A stretch of 64,000 nt of DNA. Origin: Mucilaginibacter pankratovii (GTDB lineage: Bacteria; Bacteroidota; Bacteroidia; Sphingobacteriales; Sphingobacteriaceae). This document shows positions 3,588-9,966 of this stretch, piece by piece (position 1 is the first letter of the stretch; each line of letters begins with the position of its first letter). The stretch lies in the NCBI RefSeq assembly GCF_014773265.1, contig NZ_JACWMY010000006.1, positions 1 through 64,000 of the forward strand, written 5' to 3'. The position numbers and the translations under genes were made by a program. The notes below the pieces were generated by a model, which was given only the letters and a program-made list of their open reading frames with translations, had not been told where the DNA came from and did no database searches.

Positions 3588-3869
3588 ATGAAAGCCATCT
3601 GGAACAACCAGGTAATTGCAGAGAGCGATAACACTATTGTTGTTGAAAACAACCACTATTTCCCTAAAGAGAGCATTAAGCAGGAATATTTTAAAGCTTG
3701 CGATACGCAAACCACTTGCCCCTGGAAGGGGCTGGCATCGTACTATACGCTCGAGGTAGACGGAAAACAAAACCCCGCCGCCGCCTGGTATTACCCCGAA
3801 CCCAAACCGGCCGCTGCCAATATTGCCAACCACGTGGCTTTTTGGAAAGGAGTGAAAGTAACCAACTGA
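3588..3869 (+). CDS. DUF427 domain protein
   Basis: A 93-residue protein that is a single DUF427 domain (PF04248, also called NTP_transf_9). Family hallmarks are KAIWNNQVIAES at the start, the conserved TTCPWKGLASYY segment near residue 43, and AAWYYPEPKP near 65-75. The biochemical function of DUF427 is not established. It is the first gene of a six-gene same-strand run: 1 nt separates it from the disulfide reductase, and EgtB and EgtD lie at the far end. Close packing suggests a role linked to ergothioneine or thiol metabolism, which is inference. The conserved Cys in the TTCPW motif could be redox-active. Confidence 0.85.
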   Translation: MKAIWNNQVIAESDNTIVVENNHYFPKESIKQEYFKACDTQTTCPWKGLASYYTLEVDGKQNPAAAWYYPEPKPAAANIANHVAFWKGVKVTN

Positions 3870-3870
3870 T

Positions 3871-5259
3871 ATGAAACACTACGACGCAATTATTATAGGA
3901 TCGGGGCAGGCAGGCTCGCCGCTTTCCAAAAAATTAGCGAACGCCGGTAAAAAAACGCTGCTTATAGAGAAGCGCTTTATTGGCGGCACCTGCGTAAACG
4001 ATGGCTGCACACCCACTAAAACCATGGTGGCCAGTGCAAAGCTTGCTTATTTGGCAGGCAAATGCAACGATATGGGCATCGCCATAAAAGGCTATACGGT
4101 AGATCTGAAACAGGTGAAAAAACGCGCACAGGGTATCGTCATGAAATCGCGGACGGGGAGCCAGGCGGCGATGGAGAAAACCAAAAACCTCGACTTGCTT
4201 TTTGGCGAAGCTACCTTTACAGGAAACAAATCCATTTCTGTAAACCCGAAAACAGGCAAGGCAAGGCAATTTACTGCCGACCAGATCTTTATTAACGCCG
4301 GCTGCAAAACCATCATTCCAAAAGATATTGAGGGCTTGGATGATATCGATTATCTCACTTCAACTACCATTCTCGAATTGGAGAAAGTTCCGGAGCATTT
4401 ATTGATCATCGGCGGCAATTACATCGGCCTGGAGTTTGGGCAGATGTTTAGGCGGTTTGGCAGTAAGGTTACTATTTTGGAAAGATCCGATAGGTTGATC
4501 TCCAGGGAGGATGAAGATATTTCGATAGAAATAACCCGCATACTGGAAGAGGAGGGTATAAAAGTGCTTGCCAATACTAAGGCTATCAAATTTAAGAATA
4601 AAGGGAAAAACAAAATCACCGCAACAGTAAAAACCGGCGATAAAGAAAGCAAAATAAAATGCAGCCATGTGCTGGTTGCCGTTGGGCGCTCACCACAAAC
4701 GGCCAGGCTCGCGCTGGATAAGACGGGTGTAAAACTTGACGACAAAGGCTACATCAAGGTAAATGAAAAACTGGAAACCAGCGAAAAGGGTATTTATGCG
4801 CTGGGCGATATAAAGGGCGGGCCGGCGTTTACGCATGTTTCTTATAACGATTACACCATCGTTTACCGTAACCTTATCGAAAAGCAGGACCTCAACATTA
4901 ACGACAGGCCCATTCCATACTGTATGTTTACCGACCCGGAACTTGGCCGCGTGGGGATTACCGAAACGGAGGCAAAAAAGCAGGGACTGAATATAAAAGT
5001 GGCCAAATTGCCGATGTCGCACGTAGCGAGAGCTTTAGAAACCGGCGATACCCGCGGGCTGATGAAAGCCGTTGTGGACGCCGATACCAAAAAAATATTG
5101 GGCGTAGCCGTTGTCGGCACAGAAGGCGGCGAAATTATGTCGGTACTGCAAATGGCCATGGAGGGCGGCATTACTTACGACAGGATCCGCTATTGCGTAT
5201 TTGCCCACCCAACGTACTCCGAATCGCTGAACAACCTTTTTATGACTCTGGAGGACTAA
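3871..5259 (+). CDS. Flavoprotein pyridine nucleotide-disulfide reductase (class I, MerA-like fold)
   Basis: A 462-residue FAD/NAD(P)H-dependent dithiol-disulfide oxidoreductase. The N-terminal GxGxxG is IIGSGQAG, the redox-active pair is Cys41/Cys46 in GGTCVNDGCTPTK, the NAD(P)-binding motif is IIGGNYIGLEFG (about 175-185), the second FAD motif ends in YALGDIKGG, and the C-terminal His-Glu catalytic dyad is in FAHPTYSES. It lacks the N-terminal HMA domain and C-terminal vicinal cysteines of true mercuric reductase, so MerA activity is unlikely. Substrates of such orphan reductases are usually small disulfides. Its place between DUF427 and an ergothioneine-type transporter with egtBD suggests reduction of an ergothioneine or related thiol disulfide; this is inference. 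Confidence 0.9.
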   Translation: MKHYDAIIIGSGQAGSPLSKKLANAGKKTLLIEKRFIGGTCVNDGCTPTKTMVASAKLAYLAGKCNDMGIAIKGYTVDLKQVKKRAQGIVMKSRTGSQAAMEKTKNLDLLFGEATFTGNKSISVNPKTGKARQFTADQIFINAGCKTIIPKDIEGLDDIDYLTSTTILELEKVPEHLLIIGGNYIGLEFGQMFRRFGSKVTILERSDRLISREDEDISIEITRILEEEGIKVLANTKAIKFKNKGKNKITATVKTGDKESKIKCSHVLVAVGRSPQTARLALDKTGVKLDDKGYIKVNEKLETSEKGIYALGDIKGGPAFTHVSYNDYTIVYRNLIEKQDLNINDRPIPYCMFTDPELGRVGITETEAKKQGLNIKVAKLPMSHVARALETGDTRGLMKAVVDADTKKILGVAVVGTEGGEIMSVLQMAMEGGITYDRIRYCVFAHPTYSESLNNLFMTLED

Positions 5260-5268
5260 CCAACCCCT

Positions 5269-6234
5269 ATGATAAAAGTTGAGCGCCTCGTAAAAACATT
5301 CTGTACAACAAAAGCTGTTGACGGTATTTCTTTTGAAGTGGCCGAAGGCGAGACGTTGGCTTTGCTGGGCACCAGTGGCTGCGGCAAAACCACTACGCTA
5401 AAAATGCTGAACCGCTTAATAGAACCCGATAGCGGCACCATCTCCATTAACAATAAAAATATTTTAGAAGCCCCCCCCGAAACCTTGCGCCGCGGCATTG
5501 GCTACGTGCTGCAAAACAACGGACTGTTTCCCCACTACACCGTTGCCGAGAATATTGCCATTGTGCCCCAACTGTTGAAATGGGATAAAGTAAAAACCGA
5601 TAAACGCGTAAGCGAATTACTGGACAAGCTGCACCTCGGTAAAGAACACCTTAAAGCTTACCCAAACGAGCTAAGCGGAGGCCAGCAACAACGCATAGGT
5701 TTGGCAAGGGCCCTGGTTGCAGATCCGCCCGTATTGCTGATGGATGAGCCTTTCGGCGCGCTGGACAACGTTACCCGCTCTAAGATCCACAGCGAGTTTA
5801 AGGCGCTGGACGAGCTGAAACGTAAAACCATTATCCTGGTAACGCACGATGTACAGGAAGCCTTTGAACTGGCCGATCGCATCGCCCTGATGGACAAAGG
5901 CAAAATAGTACAGATAGGTAGGCCGGCCGAATTGCTGTTCAAACCTGCAAATGAATTTGTAAGCGGCTTTTTAAACGAGCAGCGCCTGCAACTGGAATTT
6001 AAAGCTATTAAAATAACCGATCTGTGGGAGCACCTGCCCGAAGGTGGCCGTAAAACAAACACATCATCCCTATCTGCCGATGCGGATTTTTGGTCGGCGT
6101 TGGAGCAGTTTAAGTTTATTAAGGGTGAGAACCTCAACATCCTTAATCAGCAGAGTAAAGAAATAAAAAACATCAGTTTTGAAGCGTTGATGGCTGCTTA
6201 TTCACAATATAAACACCTGCAGCCGCATGATTGA
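5269..6234 (+). CDS. ABC transporter ATPase, quaternary-amine/ergothioneine type (EgtV/OpuCA-like)
   Basis: The cytoplasmic ATPase of an importer. Walker A is GTSGCGKTT (about 34-42), the Q-loop is VLQNNGLFPHYTV, the signature is LSGGQQQRIGLARAL, Walker B is LLMDEPFGALD, and the H-loop is ILVTHDVQEA. Its 321 residues include a C-terminal extension of about 75 residues that does not obviously form the CBS pair of ProV/OpuAA. The stop overlaps the start of the permease by 8 nt (6227-6234), so the two products are coupled. Sequence alone fits the glycine betaine/choline/carnitine family; the egtB-egtD context favours ergothioneine as substrate, as for the EgtUV transporters of Helicobacter and Streptococcus. 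Confidence 0.9.
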   Translation: MIKVERLVKTFCTTKAVDGISFEVAEGETLALLGTSGCGKTTTLKMLNRLIEPDSGTISINNKNILEAPPETLRRGIGYVLQNNGLFPHYTVAENIAIVPQLLKWDKVKTDKRVSELLDKLHLGKEHLKAYPNELSGGQQQRIGLARALVADPPVLLMDEPFGALDNVTRSKIHSEFKALDELKRKTIILVTHDVQEAFELADRIALMDKGKIVQIGRPAELLFKPANEFVSGFLNEQRLQLEFKAIKITDLWEHLPEGGRKTNTSSLSADADFWSALEQFKFIKGENLNILNQQSKEIKNISFEALMAAYSQYKHLQPHD

Positions 6235-7798
6235 GCCACAGCAAACCCTTTGGGATTTTATGGGCCAGCAGGCCGATAAGTTGGGTGTGCAAACGCTGCA
6301 GCACATTGGGCTTACATTTATTTCGCTGTTCATCGCAGTGCTCATAGGTTTGCCATTGGGCATTTACATCACCCGAAAAAAAAGCCTTTCGGGTTTGGTG
6401 CTGGGCATTGCCGGCATTCTGCAAACCATCCCCAGTATCGCCTTACTCGGTTTTATGATCCCTTTGCTGGGCATCGGTGCAAAACCCGCCATCGTCGCCC
6501 TGCTGCTTTATGCCCTGTTGCCTATCATCCGCAATACCTATACCGGCATAACCGGGGTAGATGCCACGGTGAAAGAAGCTGCTGTAGCCATGGGCATGAG
6601 CAAATGGCAGGTACTGTTTAAGGTAGAGCTTCCGCTGGCGATGCCGGTAATACTGGCGGGCATCCGTACAGCCACGGTCATCAATGTTGGGGTGGCCACG
6701 CTGGCGTCTTACATTGCTGCGGGTGGCTTAGGCGAGTTTATCTTCGGCGGCATCTCGCTCAACAATACCAATATGATATTGGCGGGCGCGATACCCGCAG
6801 CCTTGCTGGCCATTATCTTCGATTTCCTGCTCTCGCTGGTGCAAAAGCTCAACTTTAAAAAGATAAAAGGCGCGGTTAAAATTGCACCGGTTCTGTTGCT
6901 GGTGCTTTCCTGTTTGTACTTTATTCCATCAGCCTATGGCGGCAAATTAACCGCCGGTTTTACGCCCGAGTTTATGGGCCGGCAGGATGGCAACCTGGGG
7001 CTGCAAAGCAAATACGGATTGAAGATCCATACCATCGTTATCAGCGATGCGGTGATGTACAAGGCCGCGCAGGAGAAGGAACTGGATGTGATCAGCGGTT
7101 ACTCTACCGACGGGCGCCTGAAAGCCTACAACCTCATTGTTTTGGATGACGATAAAAAGATCTTCCCGCCCTACTATGCAGCACCTGTGGTACGCGAAGA
7201 TGCGTTAAGGAAATTCCCCGAACTGGAGAAAACGCTGAATTTGTTAGCCGGTTTCATCACCGATTCCATCATGACAGAGCTGAACTACAAAACCGACTAC
7301 CTGCACCAATCACCCGAGCGGGTTGCCAAAGACTTTTTGGTGGCGAAGAAATTATACCGGGCCGATAAAGGCGGCAAGGAAGGCGTGGTGCGCATCGGCT
7401 CCAAAATATTTGGCGAGCAATACATTTTAGCCAGCATGTACACCATGTTGATAAAGGGTTACACCAACTACAATGTGGCTACCAAAACCGGGCTCGGCGG
7501 CACCAAAATAGTCTTCGACGCGCTAACAAACGACCAGATAGACTTTTACCCCGAATACACCGGCACGGGCTTGCTGGCCATACTGCAGGCGGCGCCAAAA
7601 ACCGTAACGCAACTGCAAACCAGCAAGGATAGTACCTACAATTATGTTGCACGCGAGTTTGAAAAGCGTTATCAGCTGAAGTGGCTTAAGCCCATCGGGT
7701 TTAATAATGCCTATGCTTTAATGATGCGCGAAAAACAGGCAAATGAGTTACATATCAAAACAATTTCTAACCTCAAACGATATTTGGATAGCAAATAA
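6227..7798 (+). CDS. Fused ABC permease and circularly permuted substrate-binding domain (EgtU-like)
   Basis: A 523-residue fusion. Residues 1-210 are the permease, with membrane helices and the EAA loop EAAVAMGMSKWQVLFKVELP (117-136). A further hydrophobic helix (218-235) anchors an extracytoplasmic OpuAC-type binding domain. That domain is in swapped order: residues 241-375 (GFTPEFMGRQDG, GYSTDGRLKAYNL, IFPPYYAAPV, LNYKTDY, VAKDFL) match the second half of OpuCC. Residues 387-523 (VRIGSKIFGEQYIL, GLGGTKIVFDAL, IDFYPEYTGTGLL, IGFNNAYALMM, KTISNLKRYL) match its first half. Aromatic residues in YPEYTGT and GYSTDG are candidates for the trimethylammonium cage. Five nt separate it from egtB. The predicted cargo is ergothioneine; betaine or choline remains possible. 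Confidence 0.9.
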   Translation: MIEPQQTLWDFMGQQADKLGVQTLQHIGLTFISLFIAVLIGLPLGIYITRKKSLSGLVLGIAGILQTIPSIALLGFMIPLLGIGAKPAIVALLLYALLPIIRNTYTGITGVDATVKEAAVAMGMSKWQVLFKVELPLAMPVILAGIRTATVINVGVATLASYIAAGGLGEFIFGGISLNNTNMILAGAIPAALLAIIFDFLLSLVQKLNFKKIKGAVKIAPVLLLVLSCLYFIPSAYGGKLTAGFTPEFMGRQDGNLGLQSKYGLKIHTIVISDAVMYKAAQEKELDVISGYSTDGRLKAYNLIVLDDDKKIFPPYYAAPVVREDALRKFPELEKTLNLLAGFITDSIMTELNYKTDYLHQSPERVAKDFLVAKKLYRADKGGKEGVVRIGSKIFGEQYILASMYTMLIKGYTNYNVATKTGLGGTKIVFDALTNDQIDFYPEYTGTGLLAILQAAPKTVTQLQTSKDSTYNYVAREFEKRYQLKWLKPIGFNNAYALMMREKQANELHIKTISNLKRYLDSK

Positions 7799-7803
7799 TA
7801 CCA

Positions 7804-8958
7804 ATGGATTTAGCAGAAGTATATAAAAAAGTACGCGCACGGACCGAAGCTATATGTGCCCCGCTGCAAACCGAAGATTACGTGGTGCAGCCCGTGGTGG
7901 ATGTTAGTCCACCTAAATGGCACATTGGGCACACCACCTGGTTCTTCGAAACTTTTATCCTGAAGCCTTATTTTATGGGCTACCAGGAGTACGACCCCAA
8001 TTACAATTACGTTTTCAATAGCTATTACGAAACCGTTGGCAACCGCGTTATCCGTACGGATAGGGGTAATTTGAGCCGGCCCACCGTTATCGATATCCAG
8101 CTGTACCGCAAATATGTGGATGATGCCATGCAAAACTTTATTGCCGCGGACGAATTAAGCGCGGAAGTAAAAGAACTGCTGATATTGGGTTTTAACCACG
8201 AGGAGCAGCACCAGGAACTTTTGCTGACGGATATCAAATTTATCTTAGGCAATAACCCGCTGTTCCCGGCTTACTCGCATGAATATGTAAAGCCAAAGTT
8301 AGAAGGAGCTGTAGGTACAGAATTCATTAAACTTAATGAAGGCGTTTACGAAGTTGGTTTTGCAGGCGAAGGCTTTGCTTTTGATAATGAATTGAACCGC
8401 CACAAAGTTTATTTGAATACTTTTGAGATAAGTCCTGTGCTGGTTACCAATGCCGAATATTTGGAATTTATAGATGCCGGCGGCTACCACGATTTTCGCC
8501 ACTGGCATGCTGCGGGCTGGGATTGGGTAAACACCAACAAGGTAGAAGCGCCCATGTACTGGCACCAGATAGATGGCGAATGGCATTACTATACCTATCA
8601 CGGTTTGGAGCCGCTAAACCTGCACGAAACGCTGTGCCATATCAGCTATTACGAAGCTTACGCCTATGCCTCCTGGAAAGGCATGCGCCTGCCAACTGAA
8701 TTTGAATGGGAGGCTGCAGCCACGCAATTTAAATGGGGCAGCCGCTGGGAGTGGACCGAAAGCTCGTACCTGCCATACCCCGGCTTTGCCAAAGCGCCGG
8801 GTGCCATTGGCGAGTACAATGGCAAATTTATGGTGGGGCAAAAGGTTTTGAGGGGAGCTTCGGAGGTTACTTCTCCCGGCCATAGCCGCATTACTTACCG
8901 CAACTTTTTTCAGCCGGAATTACGCTGGCAATTTACAGGCATCCGCCTGGCAAAATAA
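7804..8958 (+). CDS. egtB: Ergothioneine sulfoxide synthase EgtB
   Basis: An iron(II)-dependent sulfoxide synthase that joins a thiol donor (gamma-Glu-Cys or Cys) to N-alpha-trimethylhistidine with O2. The N-terminal DinB-like domain (about 8-150) carries the likely iron ligands: His43 in WHIGHTTWF plus His132 and His136 in NHEEQHQEL. The C-terminal formylglycine-generating-enzyme-like domain (about 165-384) contains WDWVNTNK, CHISYYEAYAYASWKGMRLP, RWEWTESSYLPYPG and the closing WQFTGIRLAK. The length of 384 matches compact EgtB forms. It lies 21 nt before egtD. No egtC or egtE is adjacent, so the thiol donor and the C-S lyase step are not defined here. Confidence 0.93.
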   Translation: MDLAEVYKKVRARTEAICAPLQTEDYVVQPVVDVSPPKWHIGHTTWFFETFILKPYFMGYQEYDPNYNYVFNSYYETVGNRVIRTDRGNLSRPTVIDIQLYRKYVDDAMQNFIAADELSAEVKELLILGFNHEEQHQELLLTDIKFILGNNPLFPAYSHEYVKPKLEGAVGTEFIKLNEGVYEVGFAGEGFAFDNELNRHKVYLNTFEISPVLVTNAEYLEFIDAGGYHDFRHWHAAGWDWVNTNKVEAPMYWHQIDGEWHYYTYHGLEPLNLHETLCHISYYEAYAYASWKGMRLPTEFEWEAAATQFKWGSRWEWTESSYLPYPGFAKAPGAIGEYNGKFMVGQKVLRGASEVTSPGHSRITYRNFFQPELRWQFTGIRLAK

Positions 8959-8979
8959 TACGTACCTGTACAAACACCA

Positions 8980-9966
8980 ATGGAAAATACCAATACTATA
9001 GCAATGCCGCAGCCATCTGTAATAAGCGACACGCAATTCTATAAAGACGTTGTAAAGGGCTTAAGCGGCACACCTAAGCGCCTCGACTCCAAATATTTTT
9101 ATGATGCTCAGGGCGATAAGATCTTCCAGGAGCTGATGAATTGTGAAGAATATTATCCCACCAATTGCGAGTTGGAGATCTTTACACAAAAAACCGCTGA
9201 ATTGGCAAGATCCATCATTGCAGATGGTGACGCCTTCGACCTGATAGAACTGGGTGCGGGGGATGCCACTAAATCGTCGCATCTGTTAAAATACCTCATT
9301 GATGAGAAAGCCGATTTTACTTATCTGCCGATAGATATCTCCGAAAATGTAATATCCTACCTCAACATCACGCTTCCGGTTACTTTGCCGGGGATTAAGA
9401 TTACCGGCCTGCAAGGCGAATATTTTAATATGCTGAAAAAAGCCGCGGCCATATCTGATAAACGTAAGGTGGTGATGTTCCTGGGCTCCAATATCGGCAA
9501 CATGCAGGTGAAGGACGCCGAAGCGTTTTGCAAAGTGCTGCGCGATCACCTTTCGCCCGGCGATATGGTGCTGATAGGGATCGACCTGAAGAAGAATCCG
9601 CACACCGTTTTAGCCGCTTATAACGATAAAAGGGGCATCACCAAGCGCTTTAATCTCAATCTGCTGGAACGCATCAACCGCGAACTGAACGGCAGCTTTA
9701 GCATTCCCCAATTCGACCACTATGCCACCTATGACCCGGAGAGCGGTGCCTGCCGCAGCTATTTGGTTAGCTTGCAGGAGCAACAGGTGAATATTAACGG
9801 CCAGCTGGTAAGTTTTGCTAAGAATGAATACATCTATATGGAGATCTCGCAGAAGTTTACAGTAGAGCAGGTAAACAGCATGGCAAAATCAACGGGATTT
9901 AAGCCATTGCACCAGTTTTTTGATAGCAAGGGTTGGTTTGTGGATGCGATTTGGCTGGCGGAATAG
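8980..9966 (+). CDS. egtD: Histidine N-alpha-methyltransferase EgtD
   Basis: A SAM-dependent enzyme that trimethylates the alpha-amino group of histidine to hercynine, the first step of ergothioneine synthesis. Its 328 residues match the family. Hallmarks are RLDSKYFYDAQGDKIFQEL near residue 35, the SAM motif ELGAGDATKSSHLL near 85, MFLGSNIGNM near 168, and YMEISQKF near 290, the Glu-x-Ser that binds the histidine imidazole and amine in characterised EgtD. It is the last gene of the operon and is convergent with a small minus-strand hypothetical gene; no clear intrinsic terminator lies between them. Confidence 0.95.
   Translation: MENTNTIAMPQPSVISDTQFYKDVVKGLSGTPKRLDSKYFYDAQGDKIFQELMNCEEYYPTNCELEIFTQKTAELARSIIADGDAFDLIELGAGDATKSSHLLKYLIDEKADFTYLPIDISENVISYLNITLPVTLPGIKITGLQGEYFNMLKKAAAISDKRKVVMFLGSNIGNMQVKDAEAFCKVLRDHLSPGDMVLIGIDLKKNPHTVLAAYNDKRGITKRFNLNLLERINRELNGSFSIPQFDHYATYDPESGACRSYLVSLQEQQVNINGQLVSFAKNEYIYMEISQKFTVEQVNSMAKSTGFKPLHQFFDSKGWFVDAIWLAE

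Follow-up and report, generated by a model that had tools for sequence, protein, structure and literature searches.

The closest described relatives of the protein analysed here are the EgtU-type importers of the antioxidant ergothioneine and the betaine-binding proteins of the OpuCC, AfProX and OpuAC kinds. In EgtUC, the substrate-binding domain (SBD) of Streptococcus pneumoniae EgtU, lobe D1 comprises residues 233-331 and 445-506 and lobe D2 residues 341-432 (PMC9732360). G244 and the F293/Y337 pair contribute significantly to ergothioneine affinity, other quaternary amines may be the cargo of relatives that lack G244 and the F/Y switch, and Helicobacter pylori relatives take up ergothioneine with lower affinity (Zhang et al., PMC9732360); a structure of H. 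pylori EgtU with ergothioneine, 8dp7, was returned by our structure search. Circular permutation, for its part, has been reported previously among glycine-betaine-binding proteins, including 2b4l, 1r9l and 1sw1 (PMC2395249).

The window, a stretch of 64,000 nucleotides from Mucilaginibacter pankratovii (contig NZ_JACWMY010000006.1), carries a run of six plus-strand genes at 3588-9966 with gaps of -8 to +21 bases, namely a DUF427 gene, an FAD disulfide reductase gene, an ATPase gene, a permease/SBD fusion, egtB and egtD (Table 1). The fusion begins 8 bases before the ATPase frame ends, contains zero internal stops and is the sole OpuAC-family protein that a whole-genome search for this family found. 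It shares with EgtU both the joining of permease to SBD and the ProV-type ATPase partner, and departs from the normal order of the SBD halves (n-c) in that the permease is followed by the second half and only then by the first, an arrangement referred to below as permease-c-n.

Table 1. Features of the six-gene run and segments of the fusion, with positions in the window.
Feature	Positions	Strand	Basis
Small DUF427 protein at the head of the run	3588..3869	+	PF04248 E 4.1e-34; in the loci of 26/69 relatives
FAD/NAD(P) disulfide oxidoreductase with CVNDGC redox motif	3871..5259	+	Pfam Pyr_redox_2 E 9.7e-61
ABC ATPase of betaine/proline/choline (ProV) type, partner of the fusion	5269..6234	+	TIGR01186 E 1e-87, below its cut-off
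Permease/substrate-binding fusion, 523 aa	6227..7798	+	single ORF; Pfam BPD_transp_1 and OpuAC, the latter in swapped order
ABC permease core (BPD_transp_1), residues 41-213	6347..6865	+	Pfam E 2.3e-26
Last membrane helix/anchor, residues 210-236	6854..6934	+	helix in AlphaFold model of the fusion; hydrophobic sequence
SBD second half, placed first, residues 240-376 (about SpEgtUC 368-503)	6944..7354	+	phmmer i-E 1.6e-35; Pfam OpuAC profile 114-255
Linker between old C- and N-termini, residues 377-386	7355..7384	+	length near-constant, sequence variable across members
SBD first half, placed last, residues 387-523 (about SpEgtUC 236-366)	7385..7795	+	phmmer i-E 1.4e-19; Pfam OpuAC profile 3-113
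egtB, ergothioneine biosynthesis sulfoxide synthase	7804..8958	+	TIGR03440 equivalog, 528 bits (cut-off 360)
egtD, histidine N-alpha-methyltransferase	8980..9966	+	TIGR03438 equivalog, 291.0 bits (cut-off 290.9); PF10017 E 1.8e-97

The circular permutation of the binding domain is confirmed by several comparisons. Pfam OpuAC (PF04069) recognizes the fusion with 190.8 bits against a gathering cut-off of 21.2, through both halves and in two swapped stretches: profile positions 114-255 fall on residues 240-371 and positions 3-113 lie downstream, and the family search of the whole genome likewise placed profile 114-255 at 6944-7339 and then profile 3-113 at 7388-7789. In a phmmer search of solved structures, residues 241-376 (SBD query 2-137) matched positions 139-274 of the S. 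pneumoniae EgtUC chain (i-E 1.6e-35) and residues 386-518 (query 147-279) matched positions 7-134 (i-E 1.4e-19), both matches being far beyond chance. A profile built from 41 permuted SBDs gave two-stretch matches to EgtUC, OpuCC, OpuBC, AfProX, OsmF and others, its first half falling on the C-terminal half of the matched chains. The preliminary description, made from the sequence, had put the swapped halves at residues 241-375 and 387-523 with a linker at 376-386, and Pfam and phmmer bear these boundaries out to within 1-2 residues; the alignment against EgtUC and OpuCC for which it called is not collinear but runs in two swapped stretches. Its further statements, that a short linker bridges the old termini and that the new N-terminus follows directly after the membrane helix, also hold: 16 residues separate the flanking motifs in 15/18 aligned members, and the anchor helix (residues 210-236) runs straight into the binding domain. 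Only a trivial slip in one motif, read as YSTDGRI and in fact YSTDGRL, needs correction.

A swap of this kind might be a mere look-alike produced by assembly, a frameshift or annotation, and one relative does show a broken frame near the permease start, although nothing of the sort was found for the window, where the fusion is a single open frame. Full-length, stop-free, single-ORF orthologues with 74-91% identity occur in 22/24 other genomes of the same genus, a 23rd holds orthologue fragments on a short contig, and all of the best 80 named relatives from a scan of GTDB contigs are permease-c-n (80/80). Since the congeneric orthologues and the named relatives share the order, the swap is not an assembly error; the confident predicted fold of the SBD also speaks against an artefact, which is exceedingly improbable and which we rejected on the strength of the orthologues across the genus and the 80/80 relatives. 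Two of the relatives are themselves defective and may represent sequencing errors or pseudogenes: in one (L065, G119:C1, 7229-8797) the frame is broken near the permease start, and in the other (L024/L030, G015:C147) fragments with a stop lie on a short contig.

AlphaFold2 modelled the SBD, with 41 sequences, at a pLDDT of 93.5 and a pTM of 0.89. Foldseek placed Bacillus subtilis OpuAC first for this model and over the whole domain, with EgtUC matched over 133-140 columns only, and VIA-align superposed model residues 1-280 on OpuAC chain residues 12-272 (Z 20.3, rmsd 3.4, 242 aligned), the next rows being unrelated binding proteins with Z of about 10. The domain is therefore collinear over its whole length with the chain topology of the B. 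subtilis OpuAC-type permuted binding protein; the absence of EgtUC among the whole-domain VIA matches is expected from an order-dependent aligner and is uninformative on the fold. This collinearity would equally be seen if the permutation had been inherited from the B. subtilis OpuAC lineage, so that the protein would be of OpuAC type and not an independently permuted member of the EgtU/OpuCC type. Such a descent is very improbable, given that the SBD shows 46-48% identity in the matching EgtUC half against about 15% to OpuAC (Foldseek comparison), that the 41-SBD profile ranks EgtUC first (1.7e-76) and has no match to B. subtilis OpuAC up to E 10, and that the pocket holds a Tyr cage instead of the Trp cage of OpuAC; OpuAC-branch membership was rejected on sequence despite the agreeing topology. 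Hence OpuAC sets the precedent for the permuted topology, the sequence itself falling in the EgtU/OpuCC/AfProX branch, and the permutation, having OpuAC-like ends on a sequence of another branch, looks independent of that of OpuAC.

Mapped onto EgtUC, the permuted chain starts near residue 368 and ends near residue 366, both within D2. Attachment to the last membrane helix would thus shift from D1, through which EgtU is tethered, to D2, with D1 predicted to become contiguous in the middle of the chain. The preliminary description had proposed that the permutation alters how the domain hangs from the transporter: the lobe that carries the tether does change, and from this docking may be altered as well. 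The structure prediction that it had recommended is confident for the SBD and moderate for the full-length fusion (pTM 0.63, best full-length Foldseek match Lactococcus lactis OpuA), which informs the fold of the domain and not the geometry of its docking.

The permuted order is common in Bacteroidota and no local oddity. The genera of the permuted relatives are Mucilaginibacter, Pedobacter, Chryseobacterium, Epilithonimonas, Chitinophaga, Niastella, Segetibacter, Dyadobacter, Sphingobacterium, Spirosoma, Larkinella, Pontibacter, Hymenobacter and others; in a phylum sample of 395 genomes, 22 gave one collinear match (permuted) and 31 gave two swapped matches (normal order), with none of the 395 carrying both architectures. 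The binding domain precedes the permease in the 20 normal-order Bacteroidota loci that were fetched (n-c-permease), and it follows that the phylum uses two fused architectures, permease-c-n and n-c-permease. No permuted member was seen outside Bacteroidota in the plasmid collection searched, which is a thin sample: its 40 best matches were all split in two pieces, as expected for normal order, the plasmid-borne relatives that were fetched from Firmicutes, Fusobacteriota, one archaeon and one gemmatimonad all have the normal half order, and so do the loci retrieved from Niallia, Ligilactobacillus, Cetobacterium, Enterococcus and others.

In a tree of the re-ordered SBD concatenated with the permease, limited to near relatives and with long rows dropped, the permuted proteins form one clade (98/97); its sister group consists of normal-order permease-n-c fusions and related proteins (87/82), and the n-c-permease proteins stand apart (100/100). 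In quick single-domain trees one long archaeal branch had fallen within the permuted rows, and a single clade was recovered after removal of long rows and concatenation. The permutation appears to have happened once and then spread widely, and the tree agrees with one conversion event, from permease-n-c to permease-c-n, which would have taken place in an ancestor within or near Bacteroidota. The SBD was probably duplicated in tandem first, its outer halves being lost afterwards; among the phylum-sample matches, no open frame had a length near that of a permease with two SBDs. By computation, then, the swap is conserved, of single origin and set in a confident two-lobe fold with OpuAC topology.

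As regards function, egtB and egtD reach the NCBIfam equivalog cut-offs, marking the run as an ergothioneine biosynthesis operon. Among the 80 relatives, the ATPase adjoins the fusion in 78, once on the other strand, the 2 without a match lying on short contigs; egtB is found within about 7 kb in 61/80 and both egtB and egtD in 59/80, and the median gap to a downstream egtB is 11 bases. No egt genes lie within 7 kb of the fusion in the members from Spirosoma, Hymenobacter, Larkinella and Pontibacter. In the phylum sample, every genome with the permuted form encodes EgtD (22/22), as do 30/31 of those with the normal order, compared with 76/342 of those with neither (Fisher p 2.7e-28, relatedness being ignored; 11 permuted and 20 normal-order genera). 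Synthesis apparently does not depend on the transporter, since 76 sampled genomes encode EgtD and no similar OpuAC-type transporter. Normal-order SBD-permease fusions also adjoin egtB/egtD in other Bacteroidota (L084, L085, L086, L087, L088), and because no sampled genome holds both architectures while each occurs beside egt genes, the one apparently replaces the other functionally. The FAD oxidoreductase is a candidate ergothioneine-disulfide reductase. Such an enzyme is encoded beside the permuted transporter in 43/69 well-flanked relatives, and in Ligilactobacillus (L184) and Latilactobacillus (L192) normal-order transporters of the EgtU type likewise have annotated NAD(P)/FAD oxidoreductases as neighbours.

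The ligand pocket is conserved in part. The ergothioneine-contact positions listed by Zhang et al. (PMC9732360) are occupied by K393, T426, Y444, T447, N494, Y496, E248, R252, Y292 and Y316, and the SpEgtUC contacts K242, T275, T296, N339, Y341, E375, R379, Y419 and Y443 have identical residues in the fusion. The conserved set comprises the aromatic cage (N494, Y496, Y292 and Y316, Y444 taking the place of F293) as well as the residues that contact the carboxylate (K393, T447, R252) and the imidazole (E248, T426). The marks of ergothioneine specificity are absent: G244 is replaced by F395 and F293/Y337 by Y444/F492, a Y/F pair that matches the glycine-betaine-binding AfProX and is present in 54/54 permuted members, in which position 244 is F in 50/54 and Q in 4.

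An AfProX-like pocket (F395, Y444, F492) is what one would expect of a general compatible-solute importer for glycine betaine, proline betaine or choline whose association with egt genes is incidental, the permutation itself being real, and the proposal that relatives lacking G244 and the F/Y switch may carry other quaternary amines (Zhang et al., PMC9732360), together with the clades in which egt genes are not adjacent, points the same way. We nonetheless regard this as rather unlikely, inasmuch as EgtD occurs in 52/53 transporter genomes against 76/342 others, the start of egtB usually lies no more than tens of bases from the fusion, and no sampled genome combines the two architectures and yet each tracks EgtD; moreover, the lower-affinity uptake in H. 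pylori (PMC9732360) and structure 8dp7 imply that the missing marks need not exclude ergothioneine. The operon, the near-perfect co-occurrence with EgtD and the partial conservation of the pocket make ergothioneine or its precursor hercynine, taken up or taken back by producers, the most likely physiological ligand. With the two specificity marks gone and the H. pylori relatives being of lower affinity, the protein is most likely an EgtU-like betaine importer with predicted ligand ergothioneine or hercynine, that is, no proven EgtU, and its ligand is given as uncertain.

Taken as a whole, the data are in our judgement probably best explained by the membrane subunit of an importer of the EgtU/OpuCC/AfProX branch that was permuted once and whose ligand is ergothioneine or hercynine. 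The ORF product would serve as membrane subunit in a type I ABC importer of quaternary-amine betaines; in it the old SBD termini, both in lobe D1, may be joined by the short linker and the new N-terminus in D2 suspended from the last membrane helix. The domain would still close on its ligand, with both halves contributing residues to the aromatic cage, and would dock on a homodimeric permease with transport driven by the neighbouring ATPase, so that a histidine betaine could be recovered or acquired by cells that also make it. More tentatively, and as a close call on which we lean slightly to the negative side, this may be a second independent permutation in the betaine family, with OpuAC-like ends but in a permease-fused importer and with the tether on the other lobe, fixed across ergothioneine-making Bacteroidota as a dedicated system of ergothioneine/hercynine recovery or homeostasis with a pocket unlike that of Firmicute EgtU.

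The permuted topology of OpuAC and the EgtU/OpuCC family are known already, and no earlier description of their combination was found in the library of openly available papers that was searched, which also returned no report of permuted EgtU homologues or of ergothioneine transport in Bacteroidota. The preliminary description had allowed that the order might prove common among EgtU homologues and already described: it is common, across Bacteroidota, and no publication describing it was found. EgtU-like transporters, hitherto described nearly exclusively in non-producing Firmicutes, are thereby extended to ergothioneine-making Bacteroidota, which offers a genomic handle on why a producer of ergothioneine would need an importer. 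Because a collinear alignment covers only half of a permuted protein, similarity-based annotation can mis-name these importers.

Compared with the known systems, the fusion is closest to S. pneumoniae EgtU (EgtUBC/EgtUC, PMC9732360), likewise a permease with a fused C-terminal binding domain and a separate ATPase, with SBD identity of 38% in the first half and 48% in the second and most ligand-contact residues conserved. It differs in the swapped halves, in the tether on D2 instead of D1, in G244F and in the F293Y/Y337F reversal, and its gene belongs to an egtB-egtD operon in organisms that produce ergothioneine; EgtU, by contrast, was described from non-producing Firmicutes. AfProX, OpuBC, OpuCC and H. 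pylori EgtU have the Pfam family in common with the fusion, AfProX also agreeing in the Y/F pair of the switch and in the F that stands in for G244, but all have their halves in normal order. B. subtilis OpuAC (2b4l/2b4m), reported earlier to be circularly permuted with respect to the ProX proteins (PMC2395249), has the same chain topology, yet it is a free, lipid-anchored, unfused protein with a Trp-based glycine/proline betaine pocket and about 15% identity to the fusion SBD. L. lactis OpuA (OpuABC, 7ahd) is also a permease-SBD fusion and betaine importer, but it shows 17% identity and is a glycine betaine transporter with a Trp-type pocket, and its SBD appears to be of normal order, judging from a weak profile match (E 0.02). 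Finally, the n-c-permease fusions of Bacteroidota share the phylum, the pocket residues at nearly all contact sites and the association with EgtD, some lying beside egtB/egtD, and differ in their N-terminal binding domain, normal half order and separate clade. The two architectures form a natural pair of fused importers of one family and apparently one function that differ in the tethered lobe, so that the contribution of the tether to docking can be tested directly.
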